DNA of 64,000 nt from Methanosarcina vacuolata Z-761 (GCF_000969905.1 NZ_CP009520.1:3658001-3722000), one strand, 5' to 3'. Shown: positions 14,821 through 34,062, counted from the first letter of the stretch. The notes: generated by a model from the sequence alone, not told the origin. Made by a program: numbers and translations.

Positions 14821-15522
14821 CTAATTCAAAATCGGTCCATGGCAAAAAAAGTCCTTATCCGATGACCAATAAAAAGAGCGTATAATCACTTCTACTGGTT
14901 TGTTATTACTTGGTGGTACACCACGCTGCAACCAGAGGTTCATCATTACTTTTGCATTTACTGTAGGAATAGATCCAGTATCTGTACAGTACCAATTAGC
15001 AATAATTTTGCCATCTGATGCTATAGCAGTGTAATGTATGTAGGTTGGTTGCCAGTCAAATGTATAAGTCACACCAGTTGCGTTTATATAACTAGAAGTA
15101 GGTGGTACAAACGTTATTGTTTGGTCTGGTTGGCATGTGAAATGTAGATGGTCTGAGCTTGAGTCACCCCACTGACCGGATTCAATATCAATCTCATGAT
15201 TATCATCTGTATATGTGAAGAGTCCAAGCACTACATTTTCATCAAGATTTAATGATTGTGAAGATACTACCCATGTATATTTACCGTATTTAAAGTCTTT
15301 AACACTGTCTAGTTCAACACAATTCCAACGATCATCTGAATAATTTAGTTCAAGGTGTAAATTTCCATTTGAATCTACATATGCGTTATTTGGGTTCCAA
15401 TAGTTTGACCCGGGACCTTTTATACCACTTTTAAGTGTCCAGTCATATCCCGACCAACTAAGGGCACTTGCATTTGATATAAGTAATATAATTCCAATTA
15501 ATATGAATATCGATTTTCGCAT
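14821..15522 (-). CDS. Secreted glycoside hydrolase family 16 endo-beta-glucanase-like protein
   Basis: The 233-residue product has a signal peptide (residues 1-20) and a GH16 jelly-roll. The catalytic signature H-E-I-D-I-E is at residues 109-114, where Glu110 would be nucleophile and Glu114 acid/base. The surrounding GLFTYTDDN and QWGD segments and the substrate-cleft YTFDWQPTYIHY also fit. Such enzymes cut beta-1,3 or beta-1,3-1,4 glucans, laminarins, or related matrix polysaccharides. It lies on the same strand as, and downstream of, the GT2 synthase, so it may trim or release that polymer. A decayed copy of its C-terminal end is at 22535-22606. Confidence 0.85.
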   Translation of the reverse strand: MRKSIFILIGIILLISNASALSWSGYDWTLKSGIKGPGSNYWNPNNAYVDSNGNLHLELNYSDDRWNCVELDSVKDFKYGKYTWVVSSQSLNLDENVVLGLFTYTDDNHEIDIESGQWGDSSSDHLHFTCQPDQTITFVPPTSSYINATGVTYTFDWQPTYIHYTAIASDGKIIANWYCTDTGSIPTVNAKVMMNLWLQRGVPPSNNKPVEVIIRSFYWSSDKDFFCHGPILN

Positions 15523-16588
15523 GTTTTCACCATATTATAAATCCTTTTTATTTAGTATAAAGTTTTATTGCAAAAAATCTCACAATAAAAATGTAAATTT
15601 ATGTGATATGGATAAAAAGTTACATATAATACATTAATATTAAATTAGGATTTTAAATTTTCTATATGGATAAAATAACATCAAAAATCGTTTTTATTAA
15701 TATTAGGTGAGTAAATTTAAACATTTTTATATTTTCTGGTTTATATAGTATTAGTTACAAATCATGCCAAACAATAAAATTTTAATTTCATTGAAATAAA
15801 TTATATTTTACCTTAACTCTGCCACGAATAGGAAATATATTTTTCAATAACACTGCTCTTGATAATGTTTCACTCGGAATCATCAAAACACAGTATTGAA
15901 TTTTTCAGCGTGCCTCCCGCAGAGAGAAAGATAAATTGATGTTTGGGCCTATAGGTATCGAATTTAAAAAATAAGTACATTTTTTATACCATATAGGGAA
16001 TAAATTTTCTTCATATTTTTCAGTTTATTTCATACAAAATTTTTGGCACTTAAAGAATAAATAGCATTAAATGTATAAAAAATTTCTGGTAAATTTAAAA
16101 GCAATAGAGAGGGAAAAATGCAAAACCTCGTGGAAAAACAATATCAAAAGATAGAATTCGTGAATTAGTTTATTCCCTAAGCGAGAGAGAGTTAAGATTT
16201 TTAATGAAAAAGAAAACAAATTCATTGCAAAAAATTATGAAATAAATGCATTGAACTAACTAGAAATTTAAGGGTATACATTACACAGGTGTCCTCTGGC
16301 AGTGTGCCTTAATTTCTGTAAACTCAAAAAATTATTAAGTTTATGTTTTGAGAATTCGAGAACAAGAGAACTTAATCATGTTAAGTATACAAAAATTTGA
16401 CTTTGAATTAGTCGGTCTGTTGCAAAAATTTTCGCCTCGGGTTTTAGGCTACGTTTTTAAGCTATTTTAGGCTATTTTAAACTATTTTAGATTATTTTAA
16501 GATATTTTAGGCTATTTTAAGCTATTTTAGGATATAATTGTACCCTTGCAGAGGAATGTATTTCTGCATATTATTGCGTTGGGATCTC
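15523..16588. other. Long AT-rich gap between GH16 and GT2 genes
   Basis: No intact gene is seen. Around 16117-16249 the plus strand reads KPRGKTISKDRIRELVYSL, followed by SERELRFLMKKK, with no start codon and a stop just upstream. This may be the remnant of a small helix-rich protein. A 10-bp phased repeat follows at 16461-16530. Confidence 0.5.
16461..16530. repeat. 10-bp phased A/T repeat, 7 units
   Basis: Seven consecutive 10-bp units of the type GCTATTTTAG/GCTATTTTAA place a TTTT tract once per helical turn, which predicts intrinsically curved DNA. It lies about 60 bp beyond the GT2 stop codon. Confidence 0.85.
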
Positions 16589-17800
16589 TCAGCGGCTTAC
16601 AATACCGGTCCGATCTAGCTTGTTCCATTTTGCCTCCTCTCTACGCAGCTCAACGATGATCGCCCATAACATTACTATATCCATCATAAAGGAATATAGT
16701 ACCCATAATGGTATCACGTAGAAGTATTTTAAATCGAACCAAGCTCGGTCAAGGGCAATAGAAAATAATAATGCAAAAACGGAAGAGAACATACCAAGCC
16801 AACCCATGATGCCTATCCAGCTCAAAGGGATGGGATTAATGTTGCGAAATAGCAAGATTGGCAACATTATGATTGATATCAACTGTAGTAAAGGTATGAT
16901 AATCATTGATATTAAGTTAATCGGCAAATAAAAGGCAAAAAGGCCATACTTTGGATTGAATAACATATCTCGGTGAATATAAGCGGTCTTAAGTAGCCCA
17001 CGCGCCCATCGCACGCGCTGCTTCCACAGGCCCGTGATAGTTGAGGGTGCTTCTGCATATACTATGGCCCAAGGTTGAAACACTATTTTGTAACCTGCTT
17101 TGTGCACGCGCCAGGTCAATTCCATGTCTTCGCCTATAAATCCCTCCAAGAAGGGTCCAGTCTTTTCAAGAGTGCTATGTCGGAAGGCGCCTATATTGCC
17201 AGACACGACCGGAAGGCAATCGATAGTAGACAGCGCTCTACGCACAAAGCCTGTACCTACGTGAGTAAGCAAGTTTGCCAGTTGTGTCTGAAGCTTATCA
17301 AGGTTAATAGGAGCATCGTTGCCACATACTGCACCTACATCTTCGCTGATAAAACCACTGAGCATCTTGCTTATGGTATCAGGAGCAAAGATGCCGTCAG
17401 CGTCGACGAAGAATAGAACTTCTCCTTTGGCCAGGTTCAGTCCCACGTTAAGAGCTGAGGCTTTGCCTCCATTTTTCTTGGTTACCACAATTACACGGGA
17501 GTTCGTTTCATAACGCTGCATCTCTTCAAGTGTATTATCAGACGAACCATCATCCACCAGGATGACCTCATATTCCGAATAGTTTGATGCTAAAATGGAC
17601 TCTATACAATGACCTATCACTTTTCCTTCATTATAGGCCGGTACCACTATAGAGACAAAGGGATTCTTGCTGTGGAATATATGCTGTTTGCTTTTGCGCA
17701 TTTCGAAAGCTAAAGATAGTGGATAATATGGAATTGTCAGAATACCTACAGAAAAGCAGGTGAATCCTATAATATAGAAGAATAAAAGAAGTGGCTCCAT
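16589..17800 (-). CDS. Processive family 2 glycosyltransferase, membrane polysaccharide synthase
   Basis: This roughly 403-residue synthase resembles PgaC/hyaluronan-synthase/BcsA-type enzymes, which polymerise and extrude a beta-linked polysaccharide. It has an N-terminal membrane segment (FFYIIGFTCFSVGILTIPYY), then SIVVPAYNEG, VDDGSSD, the FVDADG (DxD) pair, and the acceptor GEDMELTWR. QRVRWARG (QxxRW) identifies processive synthases. Three or four C-terminal membrane spans follow. The ATG overlaps the ATP-grasp stop as TAATG and is preceded by GGAG. The partner deacetylase and ligase upstream make it the core of an exopolysaccharide cassette. The sugar is not known. Confidence 0.92.
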   Translation of the reverse strand: MEPLLLFFYIIGFTCFSVGILTIPYYPLSLAFEMRKSKQHIFHSKNPFVSIVVPAYNEGKVIGHCIESILASNYSEYEVILVDDGSSDNTLEEMQRYETNSRVIVVTKKNGGKASALNVGLNLAKGEVLFFVDADGIFAPDTISKMLSGFISEDVGAVCGNDAPINLDKLQTQLANLLTHVGTGFVRRALSTIDCLPVVSGNIGAFRHSTLEKTGPFLEGFIGEDMELTWRVHKAGYKIVFQPWAIVYAEAPSTITGLWKQRVRWARGLLKTAYIHRDMLFNPKYGLFAFYLPINLISMIIIPLLQLISIIMLPILLFRNINPIPLSWIGIMGWLGMFSSVFALLFSIALDRAWFDLKYFYVIPLWVLYSFMMDIVMLWAIIVELRREEAKWNKLDRTGIVSR

Positions 17801-18654
17801 TAGCAAACTCCAAAATCTTCCAGAACTGCATCCAGTACTTCTTTGGCCTGGGCAATATTTGCTCCAAACCTGGCATTGACCTCCAGAACTACAGGATTGT
17901 GATCGTTTCGACGGCGAATATCTATGTCCATTGGACCGGTCAGATTCATGGCCTTTGCTGCAGATATAGCTATATCTGCCACGTCAGGAGCGTTTACGCG
18001 CTTCACTTCAGCTGCGTTGCCCACGATTCCCTCTTTTAGCCTGGTCTTTTCTAAAACTACGATAACAGATTTTTTCCCAATATATACCTCAGGTGCGTAA
18101 TCCGTTCCAGGGATAAATTCCTGCAATATATATCTGTCATCAAGCATGGAGATTGCAGGCCAATCCTTTATATTTCTGACAATTACCTCTCTACCGCCTC
18201 TACCTACTCGCGGCTTACTCAGGCACGGCCATCCCAAATTAAGCGAGATCTCCTCAGGCGAAGAGACCTGTGAAGGCAGTAAGTACCTGGGAACACATAC
18301 TCCATGGCTCGAAAGCCGTTTATATGTCAGAAATTTATCATCTGCATCGGAGACTGGTTGATATTGGCCAATGACCGCCGGGATGTCACTCCAGTTTTTC
18401 CATTCTGAGGCTAAGATTGGCAATTCCTCACTCACAGTTGGAATCAGCAGTTGAATGCTCTCCTCGACCGTAAGAGTATATAGTTTTTCCAAGAACGAAG
18501 GGTGTGAAGCAGGAGGAATCCTATGCACCTTGACCCCTGGAAACGAGATCCTCTGCATATCAACGCCAATGACGGTATGTCCTTTTTCTAAAAGGAGTAA
18601 TGTAACATTACGACCGGCTGGGCCTCCAATACCAGTCACCATAATTTTTACCAT
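17800..18654 (-). CDS. ATP-grasp ligase (carbamoyl-phosphate-synthase-like fold)
   Basis: This is a compact 284-residue ATP-grasp enzyme. The N-terminal Rossmann-type domain begins VKIMVTGIGGPAGRNVTLLL. The ATP-binding lysine lies in WPCLSKPRVGRGGREV. The YILQEFIPGTDYAPEVYIG hinge and the metal ligands in PMDIDIRRRNDHNPVVLEVN and ARFGAN complete the site. Such ligases join a carboxylate to an amine through an acyl-phosphate. Located between a PIG-L deacetylase and a GT2 synthase, it may attach an amino acid or similar group to freed sugar amines, which is an inference. AGAGGAA precedes the ATG. Confidence 0.85.
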   Translation of the reverse strand: MVKIMVTGIGGPAGRNVTLLLLEKGHTVIGVDMQRISFPGVKVHRIPPASHPSFLEKLYTLTVEESIQLLIPTVSEELPILASEWKNWSDIPAVIGQYQPVSDADDKFLTYKRLSSHGVCVPRYLLPSQVSSPEEISLNLGWPCLSKPRVGRGGREVIVRNIKDWPAISMLDDRYILQEFIPGTDYAPEVYIGKKSVIVVLEKTRLKEGIVGNAAEVKRVNAPDVADIAISAAKAMNLTGPMDIDIRRRNDHNPVVLEVNARFGANIAQAKEVLDAVLEDFGVC

Positions 18655-18731
18655 AAATAATTCCTCTTGCCCAATTTATGACGTGCCCTTTTAAATTTAC
18701 GATTGTTTATGCCATATTATTACAGATGTAA

Positions 18732-19640
18732 TTAAATTGGTAAGTTAATCCGAATTGCCTCAAAGCCTTCTGCTTTTTCCAATTTTGCTTGAGTACCTCG
18801 GAAGATGGCTTTTCCATAGACCTGCTCTGGCTGCACATACCTCTTTTTGTTTTGATCTTTATGTTCCTGGATACTTTCTATTTTGATATCTATATACTGT
18901 TCGATATTTACAAAAACATTTGGCTTGAAAGCCTTGGTAGTGGAAGGGCTTTCATAGCATAATATAGTGCTCAGATTGCGGCAAGCACGCAGTGTTGCAT
19001 CGTGAACCGCTTTATGATCCTGATGTAGATCGTGAATTGAGTGTGTAAATACCATATCCGGTTTCAATTCGTTTACGATTACTTCGATTTGTCTGCTAAT
19101 CTCCGAGACGAACTGGTCCAGTCTAGTATCAGGAAAATCCATAATTTCGACCTTATTTACACCTAAGAATTCAGAGCTTTTCGTTGCTTCTATAAGCCTG
19201 GAGGAACTATTACCCCCCTGTTCCCCTTTGCTTACGATCAAGCCTACTATAGTGTGCCCTGCATCGGAAAGCTTTGCGAGAGATCCTCCACAGGCGATCT
19301 CCATGTCATCTGGGTGGGCTCCAACCACCAAAATTTTCCTCGGTTTTGGACTCGGTTCAGCTATCAATTTCATCCACACAATCCCTATCAGGAGTGCACT
19401 CTGTCCTATGATGCCCAGGCAATCGGCAATTAACTGGTACCATATATTTGAATCTGTGTTTATTAGGTAGAAAATTTGAAGGGTAGCTGAAAAAATATTG
19501 ATGATTATTATGAGCCAAAAAATGATTCTAGACCTACGGACCGTTCTCTTCAGCAGCAGCTTTTTCGTTAAAATAAATATAATCACTATATTGAAAATTA
19601 TCCAATTGATCAGATGTATAAATTCTACCAAGCCAAACAT
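18732..19640 (-). CDS. Membrane-anchored PIG-L family N-deacetylase
   Basis: The 302-residue protein has three N-terminal membrane spans (about residues 5-28, 38-60, 70-92) fused to a PIG-L/LmbE deacetylase domain. The metal motif AHPDDMEIACGG is at 108-119, and the second ligand cluster is HSIHDLHQDHKAVHDA near 200. These zinc enzymes remove N-acetyl groups from GlcNAc-type sugars. The membrane anchor is not usual for soluble PIG-L enzymes such as MshB or BshB. The gene starts with GAGGGCGAT-ATG and heads the PIG-L/ATP-grasp/GT2 order. It probably deacetylates a polymer or lipid-linked intermediate. Confidence 0.88.
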   Translation of the reverse strand: MFGLVEFIHLINWIIFNIVIIFILTKKLLLKRTVRRSRIIFWLIIIINIFSATLQIFYLINTDSNIWYQLIADCLGIIGQSALLIGIVWMKLIAEPSPKPRKILVVGAHPDDMEIACGGSLAKLSDAGHTIVGLIVSKGEQGGNSSSRLIEATKSSEFLGVNKVEIMDFPDTRLDQFVSEISRQIEVIVNELKPDMVFTHSIHDLHQDHKAVHDATLRACRNLSTILCYESPSTTKAFKPNVFVNIEQYIDIKIESIQEHKDQNKKRYVQPEQVYGKAIFRGTQAKLEKAEGFEAIRINLPI

Positions 19641-21266: not shown

Positions 21267-21881
21267 TTAATTATCTGTTTTAAGAATACCCCATTCCATT
21301 AATCTTTTTTTGATCTGGTGCATCTCTATATCCGTAAAGCTGAGTCCTTGATAATGATAAAGAGATGTCTGAGGATCGTGTCCCTGTCTTTGGTAAACTT
21401 TAAAAGGCGGTACTCCTGAACTTAGCATCCAAGATTCAATACTTTTTCTTGTAGTTTTTGCTGAGATTCCAAATGGATTAAAATCAGTTTTAACAGCCCA
21501 TCTTTTAAGGTCTTGGTTCCAAGTGTCAATATCTGGAGGAGCAGGCCAGTTAAAAAATTGATCAAGAATATAGGGAAAAGTTGAGGGTAACAAATCAATG
21601 GTTCTCTCCTTCGCTTTTCGTTTCACTTTCTTCTGTGCATCTTCATTAAGACGAATTTGGTTCCTGCTCTCAGAGTACCATTCAGGATGATCATATAGCC
21701 TTTGAATTTCAGCATACCTCATGCCAGTGATTGTTGATAGCTCAAAAAGAGTTTTATGTCTCTTTTTTGGAATTCCTGCCTTAAACTTATCATATTCTAC
21801 AGGAACAAAGATACGGATTCCATTTACATAAATGGCTTCTTTGTCCCTTGTAAATCCTGAAACCGGATACTTTTCTTTCAT
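21267..21881 (-). CDS. Archaeal tyrosine recombinase / integrase (catalytic domain)
   Basis: The 204-residue protein carries the catalytic set of tyrosine recombinases of archaeal viruses and plasmids. Arg55 is in TGMRYAEIQRL, the second Arg145 in KTTRKSIESWML (K-x-x-R variant of H-x-x-R), His168 in GHDP, and a tyrosine at 175 or 177 in SLYHYQGL. It is short, and a full N-terminal core-binding domain is missing, either naturally or by decay. The gene sits among palindromes and MITEs in an otherwise gene-poor zone, which supports a degraded integrated element. No adjacent tRNA or obvious att duplication was found. Confidence 0.8.
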   Translation of the reverse strand: MKEKYPVSGFTRDKEAIYVNGIRIFVPVEYDKFKAGIPKKRHKTLFELSTITGMRYAEIQRLYDHPEWYSESRNQIRLNEDAQKKVKRKAKERTIDLLPSTFPYILDQFFNWPAPPDIDTWNQDLKRWAVKTDFNPFGISAKTTRKSIESWMLSSGVPPFKVYQRQGHDPQTSLYHYQGLSFTDIEMHQIKKRLMEWGILKTDN

Positions 21882-22611: not shown

Positions 22612-22788
22612 TATGGGTAAAAATGGCAGAGAACATACCAAGTCAACTAATGATACTTATCCAGTTCAAAGGGATGGGATTAATGTTGAGAAATAGCAAG
22701 ATTGGCAGCAGTATGATTGATATCAACTGTAGCAAAAGTATGATAATCATGTATGTTATGTTAATTGGCAAATAGAAGGCAAAAAGCT
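22612..22788 (-). pseudogene. Remnant of the GT2 synthase gene (membrane region)
   Basis: This segment aligns with 16771-16955 inside the intact GT2 gene, covering the C-terminal membrane spans (SIIMLPILLF region). Shared runs include AGAGAACATACCAAG, GGGATGGGATTAATGTTG and TATGATTGATATCAACTGTA. Several stops are present. Its order relative to the GH16 remnant matches the intact locus, but the 1.8 kb between them is missing. Confidence 0.8.
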
Positions 22789-22876
22789 AAAAATTTTAAG
22801 GCTAAAAATTTTGGAAAATTTCAAAAATACATATTTAAGTTATCAGAGGGTTTTTCAGGAAAATCCTTTATCGTTT

Positions 22877-33349: not shown

Positions 33350-34062
33350 GCTTTGGATTTAAAGCTTGATTAAAGTGAGATGGGAAATTAACAAGGAAAA
33401 GAGACGGGAAGTTAAAAAAGGATTATATTAAAATGCACTTTTCCATCTTTTTTCCAGATGTCTGGAAAAACGAATACTTAACCAAACCATATCTTTCAAA
33501 CCAAATAAAAAACACCTCAAACCAAACAAAAAACACCTTCAAACCAAATCAAAAACACCTTCAAACCAAATCAAAAACACCTTCAAACCAAACAAAAAAC
33601 ACCTTCAAACCAAATCAAAAACACCTTCAAACCAAATCAAAAACACCTTCAAACCAAATCAAAAACACCTTCAAACCAAATCAAAAACACCTTCAAACCA
33701 AATCAAAAACACCTTCAAACCAAATCAAAAACACCTTCAAACCAAATCAAAAACACCTTCAAACCAAATCAAAAACACCTTCAAACCAAATCAAAAACAC
33801 CTTCAAACCAAATCAAAAACACCTTCAAACCAAATCAAAAACACCTTCAAACCAAATCAAAAACACCTTCAAACCAAATCAAAAACACCTTCAAACCAAA
33901 TCAAAGAACACCTCAAACCAAATCAAAAACACCTTCAAACCAAATCAAAGAACACCTCAAACCAAATCAAAAACCAAAACACACCTTCAAACCAAAACAC
34001 ACCTTCAAACCAAAATTCACTTCAAACCAAACTCTACCTCCCAAAAAACAGGAGATTACTAA
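33350..34062. other. Intergenic gap dominated by a 22-bp repeat
   Basis: After the secreted-protein stop, about 150 bp of unique sequence precede a long array (33497-34027). The array ends about 35 bp before a zinc-ribbon gene. The 209-codon frame across it is rejected as a gene. Confidence 0.7.
33497..34027. repeat. 22-bp minisatellite, about 21 units plus degenerate tail
   Basis: The unit AAACCAAATCAAAAACACCTTC is repeated in tandem, with variants (AAACAAAAAAC, AAAGAACACCTC) at both edges and shortened 17-18-bp units at the right end. The plus strand contains no stop triplet in any frame of the unit. Confidence 0.95.

Follow-up and report, generated by a model that had tools for sequence, protein, structure and literature searches.

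The 64,000-nucleotide stretch of Methanosarcina vacuolata Z-761 DNA analysed here (the window) carries on its minus strand three consecutive genes, in the order PIG-L family N-deacetylase, ATP-grasp ligase and membrane glycosyltransferase of family GT2, that recur together in other Methanosarcina genomes and in a soil bacterium. Our preferred, still tentative reading is that the cassette may be an amino-glycan system built around a synthase, in which N-acyl groups are exchanged at the cytosolic face of the membrane, and its conservation suggests an undescribed modification of the amino groups of a cell-surface sugar chain. The PIG-L gene (18732-19640; 302 aa) matches PF02585 at 101.8 bits, above the cut-off of 28.2, and is followed after 77 bp by the gene for a compact, PRK12767-like ATP-grasp carboxylate-amine/thiol ligase (17800-18654; 284 aa; ATP-grasp_3 at 61.7 bits, cut-off 23.2) and then by a PgaC/IcaA-like GT2 gene (16589-17800; 403 aa; Glycos_transf_2 at 119.8 bits, cut-off 23.3). 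The stop codon of the ligase gene and the ATG of the GT2 gene overlap by one base within the sequence TAATG; this ATG at 17800, rather than the upstream limit of the open frame at 17806, is most likely the GT2 start. An earlier note on this DNA had described three ordered genes on one strand, the last two with such an overlap, and the coordinates, Pfam matches and motifs bear that description out. The dN/dS values of 0.13-0.22 for GT2 and ATP-grasp and of 0.44-0.63 for PIG-L, which is under looser constraint and evolves faster than its two partners, indicate that the trio is maintained by purifying selection.

The GT2 protein contains the motifs DDGSSD, VDADG, GED and QRVRW, of which the D, DxD, ED and QRVRW elements are invariant, together with C-terminal transmembrane helices of the PgaC/IcaA type, and over 227 aa it shares 34% identity with E. 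coli PgaC. It is matched over its full length (residues 9-399) by TIGR03937, the PNAG synthase model, with a score (197.1 bits) that lies far under the PNAG equivalog cut-off of 422.3, and is putatively processive. The full-length match accords with the view of the earlier note that a PgaC-like GT2, a PIG-L and an ATP-grasp C-N ligase make up one cassette, a unit that proves to be conserved. Several relatives of this GT2 are associated with deacetylases from other families, as would fit a synthase of HexNAc polymers that has exchanged one type of deacetylase for another: a CE4 deacetylase gene lies near a relative in a Methanosarcinaceae cluster (L076), and a Natrinema relative is tied to a DUF2334 protein, which we take to be deacetylase-like. 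The likeness extends to the MatA-type fused CE4-GT2 synthases of Actinomycetota, represented by a Kocuria rosea relative (L243; GT2 29% identical over ~410 aa), in that a deacetylase is tied to the synthase in both, whereas the Kocuria deacetylase is a fused CE4 domain and the L243 locus has no ATP-grasp gene. Within its own genome the window GT2 is not simply a copy of another GT2, as the next best match, besides a degenerate fragment, is 35% identical over half the length. That fragment (22613-22795, minus strand) lies beyond an integrase gene, has two stops and is 70% identical to residues 286-346; from it, the cassette appears to have once been partly duplicated in the window.

Members of the ATP-grasp superfamily ligate carboxylates to amines. 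The best NCBIfam match of the cassette ligase was NF009402 (PRK12767-like) at 96.2 bits, below the cut-off of 218, and profile searches of the PDB returned 2pn1 first, followed by the L-amino acid ligase 4wd3 and RimK. The cassette protein thus resembles the PRK12767 'carbamoyl phosphate synthase-like' proteins as its best NCBIfam and PDB matches, but it is ~45 residues shorter and is linked to GT2 and PIG-L genes. The earlier note had allowed for the ligase grouping firmly with an unrelated housekeeping family; no NCBIfam equivalog cut-off was reached, which speaks against such a placement. Residues that binding of ATP and metal and acyl-phosphate chemistry would call for are conserved (K147, D243, E258, N260 and R262), and the catalytic residues are invariant through the Arthrobacter counterpart described below. 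An AlphaFold model built with four close sequences had a pLDDT of 47, too poor for a fold search. An ATP-grasp gene of the same group was found within 4 kb of 8 of 80 other archaeal PIG-L sites, whereas none of 40 shifted control windows contained one, using a search model seeded partly from genomes in the tested set; PIG-L and ATP-grasp genes are directly adjacent at L147, L148 and L180 and also at L079. We regard this recurrence of the pairing in archaea as moderate sequence-based evidence.

A close ATP-grasp homologue was present in 8 of 31 Methanosarcina genomes, and a close GT2 (>80% identity) in the same eight, each of which has a PIG-L gene directly upstream and the same gene order as the window. 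The other 23 genomes contained no close copy of either gene. A PIG-L of any sort occurs in 14 of the 31, six of the 23 non-carriers having one without these partners. Linkage of the trio is all-or-none across the genus sample. Beyond Methanosarcina, no ATP-grasp of the cassette type was found in a 393-genome sample of the phylum (next best match E 7e-26), and a search of 398 Pseudomonadota genomes, run without a positive control, gave no match at E 1e-30. A contig scan with narrow patterns recovered only Methanosarcina-type relatives and one weak N-terminal match, and a viral-contig scan recovered one relative, at 26%. The concern raised in the earlier note, that such trios might rarely co-occur in other genomes, is eased by eight Methanosarcina genomes and one bacterium in which linkage is all-or-none, rare as the trio is overall.

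The bacterial side of the cassette consists of a single record, Arthrobacter sp. StoSoilB13, in which a translated search of plasmid records located PIG-L and ATP-grasp genes side by side. Identities to the window proteins are 50% for PIG-L, 41-44% for ATP-grasp and 50% for GT2, and the catalytic motifs of the trio are invariant through Arthrobacter except in PIG-L, where GAHPDD and the HQDH core are kept. A homologue of a fourth gene, 29% identical over 308 aa, follows the GT2 gene, in the same four-gene order as in M. acetivorans and in the deep Methanosarcina genome G099. Since the same four genes stand in the same order in Methanosarcina and Arthrobacter, a four-gene cassette is common to two domains of life. 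In a maximum-likelihood tree, the Methanosarcina and Arthrobacter GT2 proteins form one clade with support of 99/99, and the natural reading would be horizontal transfer, in one direction or the other, between the two lineages.

These distributions bear on the possibility that the three genes are chance neighbours, transferred together while serving separate pathways. Their patchy spread (8 of 31 genomes) would agree with such an origin, as would the fragment of an integrase gene (21267-21881) that lies 1.6 kb upstream; both fit a mobile locus. We nevertheless consider it highly improbable, given that the order, the overlap and the partners are the same across two domains of life, that the chromosomal site of the cassette in M. 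acetivorans is not the one it has in M. barkeri-type genomes, and that the trio is under purifying selection. The arrangement is not one of chance because the trio stays together in eight Methanosarcina genomes and in Arthrobacter.

The fourth gene lies directly 3′ of the GT2 gene in M. acetivorans (L069:7290-8432), G099 (L071:8523-9863) and Arthrobacter. Its product is predicted to have a short cytosolic tail, one transmembrane helix and ~330 extracytoplasmic residues, with a probable lipoprotein signal in place of the transmembrane anchor in Arthrobacter. The sole family signal was a sub-threshold GHL10 match (E 0.006); a profile search against the PDB gave only a chance match, hhalign gave no match to PgaB, and an AlphaFold model from a single sequence (pLDDT 41) was too poor for a fold search. 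Of this gene, the window and the M. barkeri-type genomes retain just the 5′ end, a stub that in the window spans 16520-16630 on the minus strand, with an approximate 3′ limit, and that was delimited by DNA alignment of eight loci and tblastn. The start codon of the fourth gene is inside the 3′ end of the GT2 gene, DNA similarity among the eight loci continues for ~60 bases beyond the GT2 stop and then ends, and in tblastn the window stub matches the first ~21 codons of the gene. Stubs were also found in G077, G078 and G089. The window cassette is thus a reduced, three-gene form of an ancestral unit of four genes. An AT-rich tandem repeat of ~4 copies of the unit TTTTAAGCTATTTTAGGCTA occupies 16455-16535 of the window, where the lost gene should go on. 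G099 carries the fourth gene twice: the other copy, on contig 48 (L095:4737-6098), is accompanied by no more than the 3′ end of a GT2 gene and has ~90% DNA identity to the first.

The PIG-L protein has three N-terminal transmembrane helices (~7-25, ~39-57 and ~70-88) ahead of a catalytic domain at ~104-298 with the metal motifs GAHPDD and HSIHDLHQDH, whose residues are invariant in the eight Methanosarcina carriers. A transmembrane helix before the metal motif was seen in 0 of 53 other archaeal PIG-L proteins examined, and the three-helix anchor is thus a hallmark of the cassette subtype. In all nine orthologues, Arthrobacter included, the first loop carries 3-7 lysines and arginines, the second 0-1 and the segment after the third helix 2-4. 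The positive-inside rule, applied to the positive first loop and post-helix tail, therefore places the catalytic domain in the cytosol, a prediction from hydropathy and charge. This has consequences for the model of the earlier note, in which a polymer is made, PIG-L then deacetylates it and the ATP-grasp enzyme acylates or aminoacylates the freed amines, here read as acting on an exported PNAG-like chain. Known biofilm polymers are deacetylated after polymerisation and extrusion (PMC6307706), and the GT2 is PgaC-like, as that model would have it. The predicted position of the PIG-L domain inside the cell in 9 of 9 orthologues goes against its order of events, however, and the ligase, which has neither a signal nor a transmembrane helix and needs ATP, could not work outside, so that we judge the model improbable. 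Because a cytosolic PIG-L domain and an ATP-dependent ligase could not reach an extruded chain, the amine chemistry would precede or accompany export.

As to the substrate, the acyl donor, the order of the reactions and the polymeric nature of the product, we infer from sequence the following form of the amino-glycan reading. The GT2 would polymerise and extrude a HexNAc chain, probably of the GlcNAc type; the membrane-anchored PIG-L, at the cytosolic face, would take the N-acetyl group off the GlcNAc donor or off GlcNAc that is nascent or lipid-linked. An ATP-driven ligation by the ATP-grasp enzyme would then join a carboxylate, probably an amino acid, to the amine thus exposed. With deacetylation and ligation occurring before or during export, the chain would already bear its new N-acyl group when it leaves the cell. 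Held at the membrane on the extracytoplasmic side, and perhaps of a hydrolase-like fold, the fourth protein may handle or trim the product outside; the window lineage has dispensed with it while retaining the first three genes under purifying selection. Stated in full, as a glycan tailoring common to Methanosarcina and Actinomycetota and so far undescribed, in which N-acetyl groups are replaced at the cytosolic face of the membrane by amino-acid amides during synthesis to give an N-aminoacylated amino-polysaccharide, the proposal is possible but somewhat doubtful.

The chief rival to the amino-glycan reading is a GPI-like glycolipid route, in which the GT2 would put a single GlcNAc on a membrane lipid, PIG-L would deacetylate it and the ATP-grasp enzyme would acylate it, the product being an aminoacyl-glucosaminyl lipid and not a polymer. 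In GPI synthesis, PIG-L holds its catalytic domain at the cytosolic face, and a membrane-anchored cytosolic PIG-L acting after GlcNAc transfer, as in the second GPI step, follows the same logic. There are GT2-like enzymes that make glycolipids by a single transfer, and deacetylation followed by ligation suits a discrete substrate. Archaeal lipids with a GPI-core-like glucosaminyl head group are known (Nishihara et al. 1992, as cited in PMC2446393), reportedly from M. barkeri. Against this, PIG-A is a GT4 enzyme and the cassette transferase is a GT2 with a full-length PgaC-like match; the cassette PIG-L has three transmembrane helices and is followed by a ligase, and nothing points to an inositol lipid as substrate. 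For a membrane lipid one would also not expect the gene right behind the GT2 to encode an extracytoplasmic protein, the cassette is absent from most Methanosarcina genomes, with any PIG-L at all in just under half of them, and it occurs in an actinobacterium, which lacks archaetidyl lipids. We therefore hold the glycolipid route to be unlikely.

The enzymes that make mycothiol and bacillithiol are glycosyltransferases of family GT4 (MshA/BshA) and ligases other than ATP-grasp proteins (MshC/BshC). Neither type is in the cassette, which has a GT2 and an ATP-grasp enzyme instead. A soluble small-molecule route resembling these pathways, leading to a GlcN-amide metabolite, would share with the cassette the order of its chemistry, namely GlcNAc transfer, PIG-L-type deacetylation and ligation of the exposed amine with an amino acid (PMC7278568), and the window PIG-L does score on BshB1 (TIGR04001, 83.2 bits). 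That score is well below the equivalog cut-off of 182.5, the score against MshB (TIGR03445) is 21.3 bits with a cut-off of 224.35, and the GT2 and PIG-L are membrane proteins, so this route seems very unlikely.

Compared with pgaABCD and icaADBC, the cassette shares a membrane GT2 with D, DxD, ED and QxxRW motifs and a full-length TIGR03937 match, a linked deacetylase and, in its ancestral form, an extracytoplasmic fourth protein. It differs from them in scoring below the TIGR03937 cut-off, in adding an ATP-grasp gene, in lacking PgaA and PgaD, and in having a PIG-L predicted to be cytosolic where PgaB and IcaB are extracytoplasmic CE4 enzymes; the fourth gene is not detectably related to PgaB, and no CE4 deacetylase was recognised among the neighbouring genes scanned at the locus. 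Since the cut-offs or partner genes of the PNAG, BshB/MshB, GPI and PRK12767 systems were each missed, we filed the cassette under none of them. It would work like a blend, its synthase being of the PNAG type and its amine chemistry of the mycothiol type. The literature searched contained no description of a PIG-L/ATP-grasp/GT2 cassette, in keeping with the view of the earlier note that this is not a standard exopolysaccharide operon. If the amino-glycan reading is correct, an archaeon and a soil bacterium would have in common a means of determining, within the cell, which charge and chemistry a surface amino-glycan has, unlike known biofilm polymers, which CE4 enzymes deacetylate externally, and both the three-helix-anchored PIG-L subtype and an ATP-grasp group without an assigned substrate would gain a concrete role. 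M. acetivorans is genetically tractable and carries the intact four-gene cassette, which makes the model directly testable.

Several neighbouring and related loci were also noted. The integrase-like gene upstream of the trio (21267-21881, minus strand; sub-threshold Phage_integrase) lies between it and a GH15 gene, and other M. barkeri-type genomes keep it at the same site. A gene for a secreted GH16-like protein (14821-15522, minus strand; Glyco_hydro_16 at 26 bits) lies downstream of the trio, a position confined to M. barkeri-type genomes; its full-length relative (L066:7416-8225) matched no Pfam family. In a different Methanosarcinaceae cluster (L076:5802-15096; also L075, L077 and L078), the PgaC-like GT2 adjoins a sub-threshold exosortase-like protein, a small secreted protein and GH16 proteins along with the CE4 deacetylase. 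Two other genera of the family (L080:4609-7330 and L081:248-2970) have a GT2 gene directly followed by a PRK12767-like ATP-grasp gene and a HAD-like gene, again a different cluster with related parts, and at L135:315-2282 a soluble PIG-L is immediately followed by a PgaC-like GT2 with no ATP-grasp gene nearby. Elsewhere in the window, an open frame at 33433-34062 on the plus strand encodes almost wholly a short repeated peptide (KTPSNQTKNTFKPNQKHLQTKS-like) and is probably translated repeat DNA.
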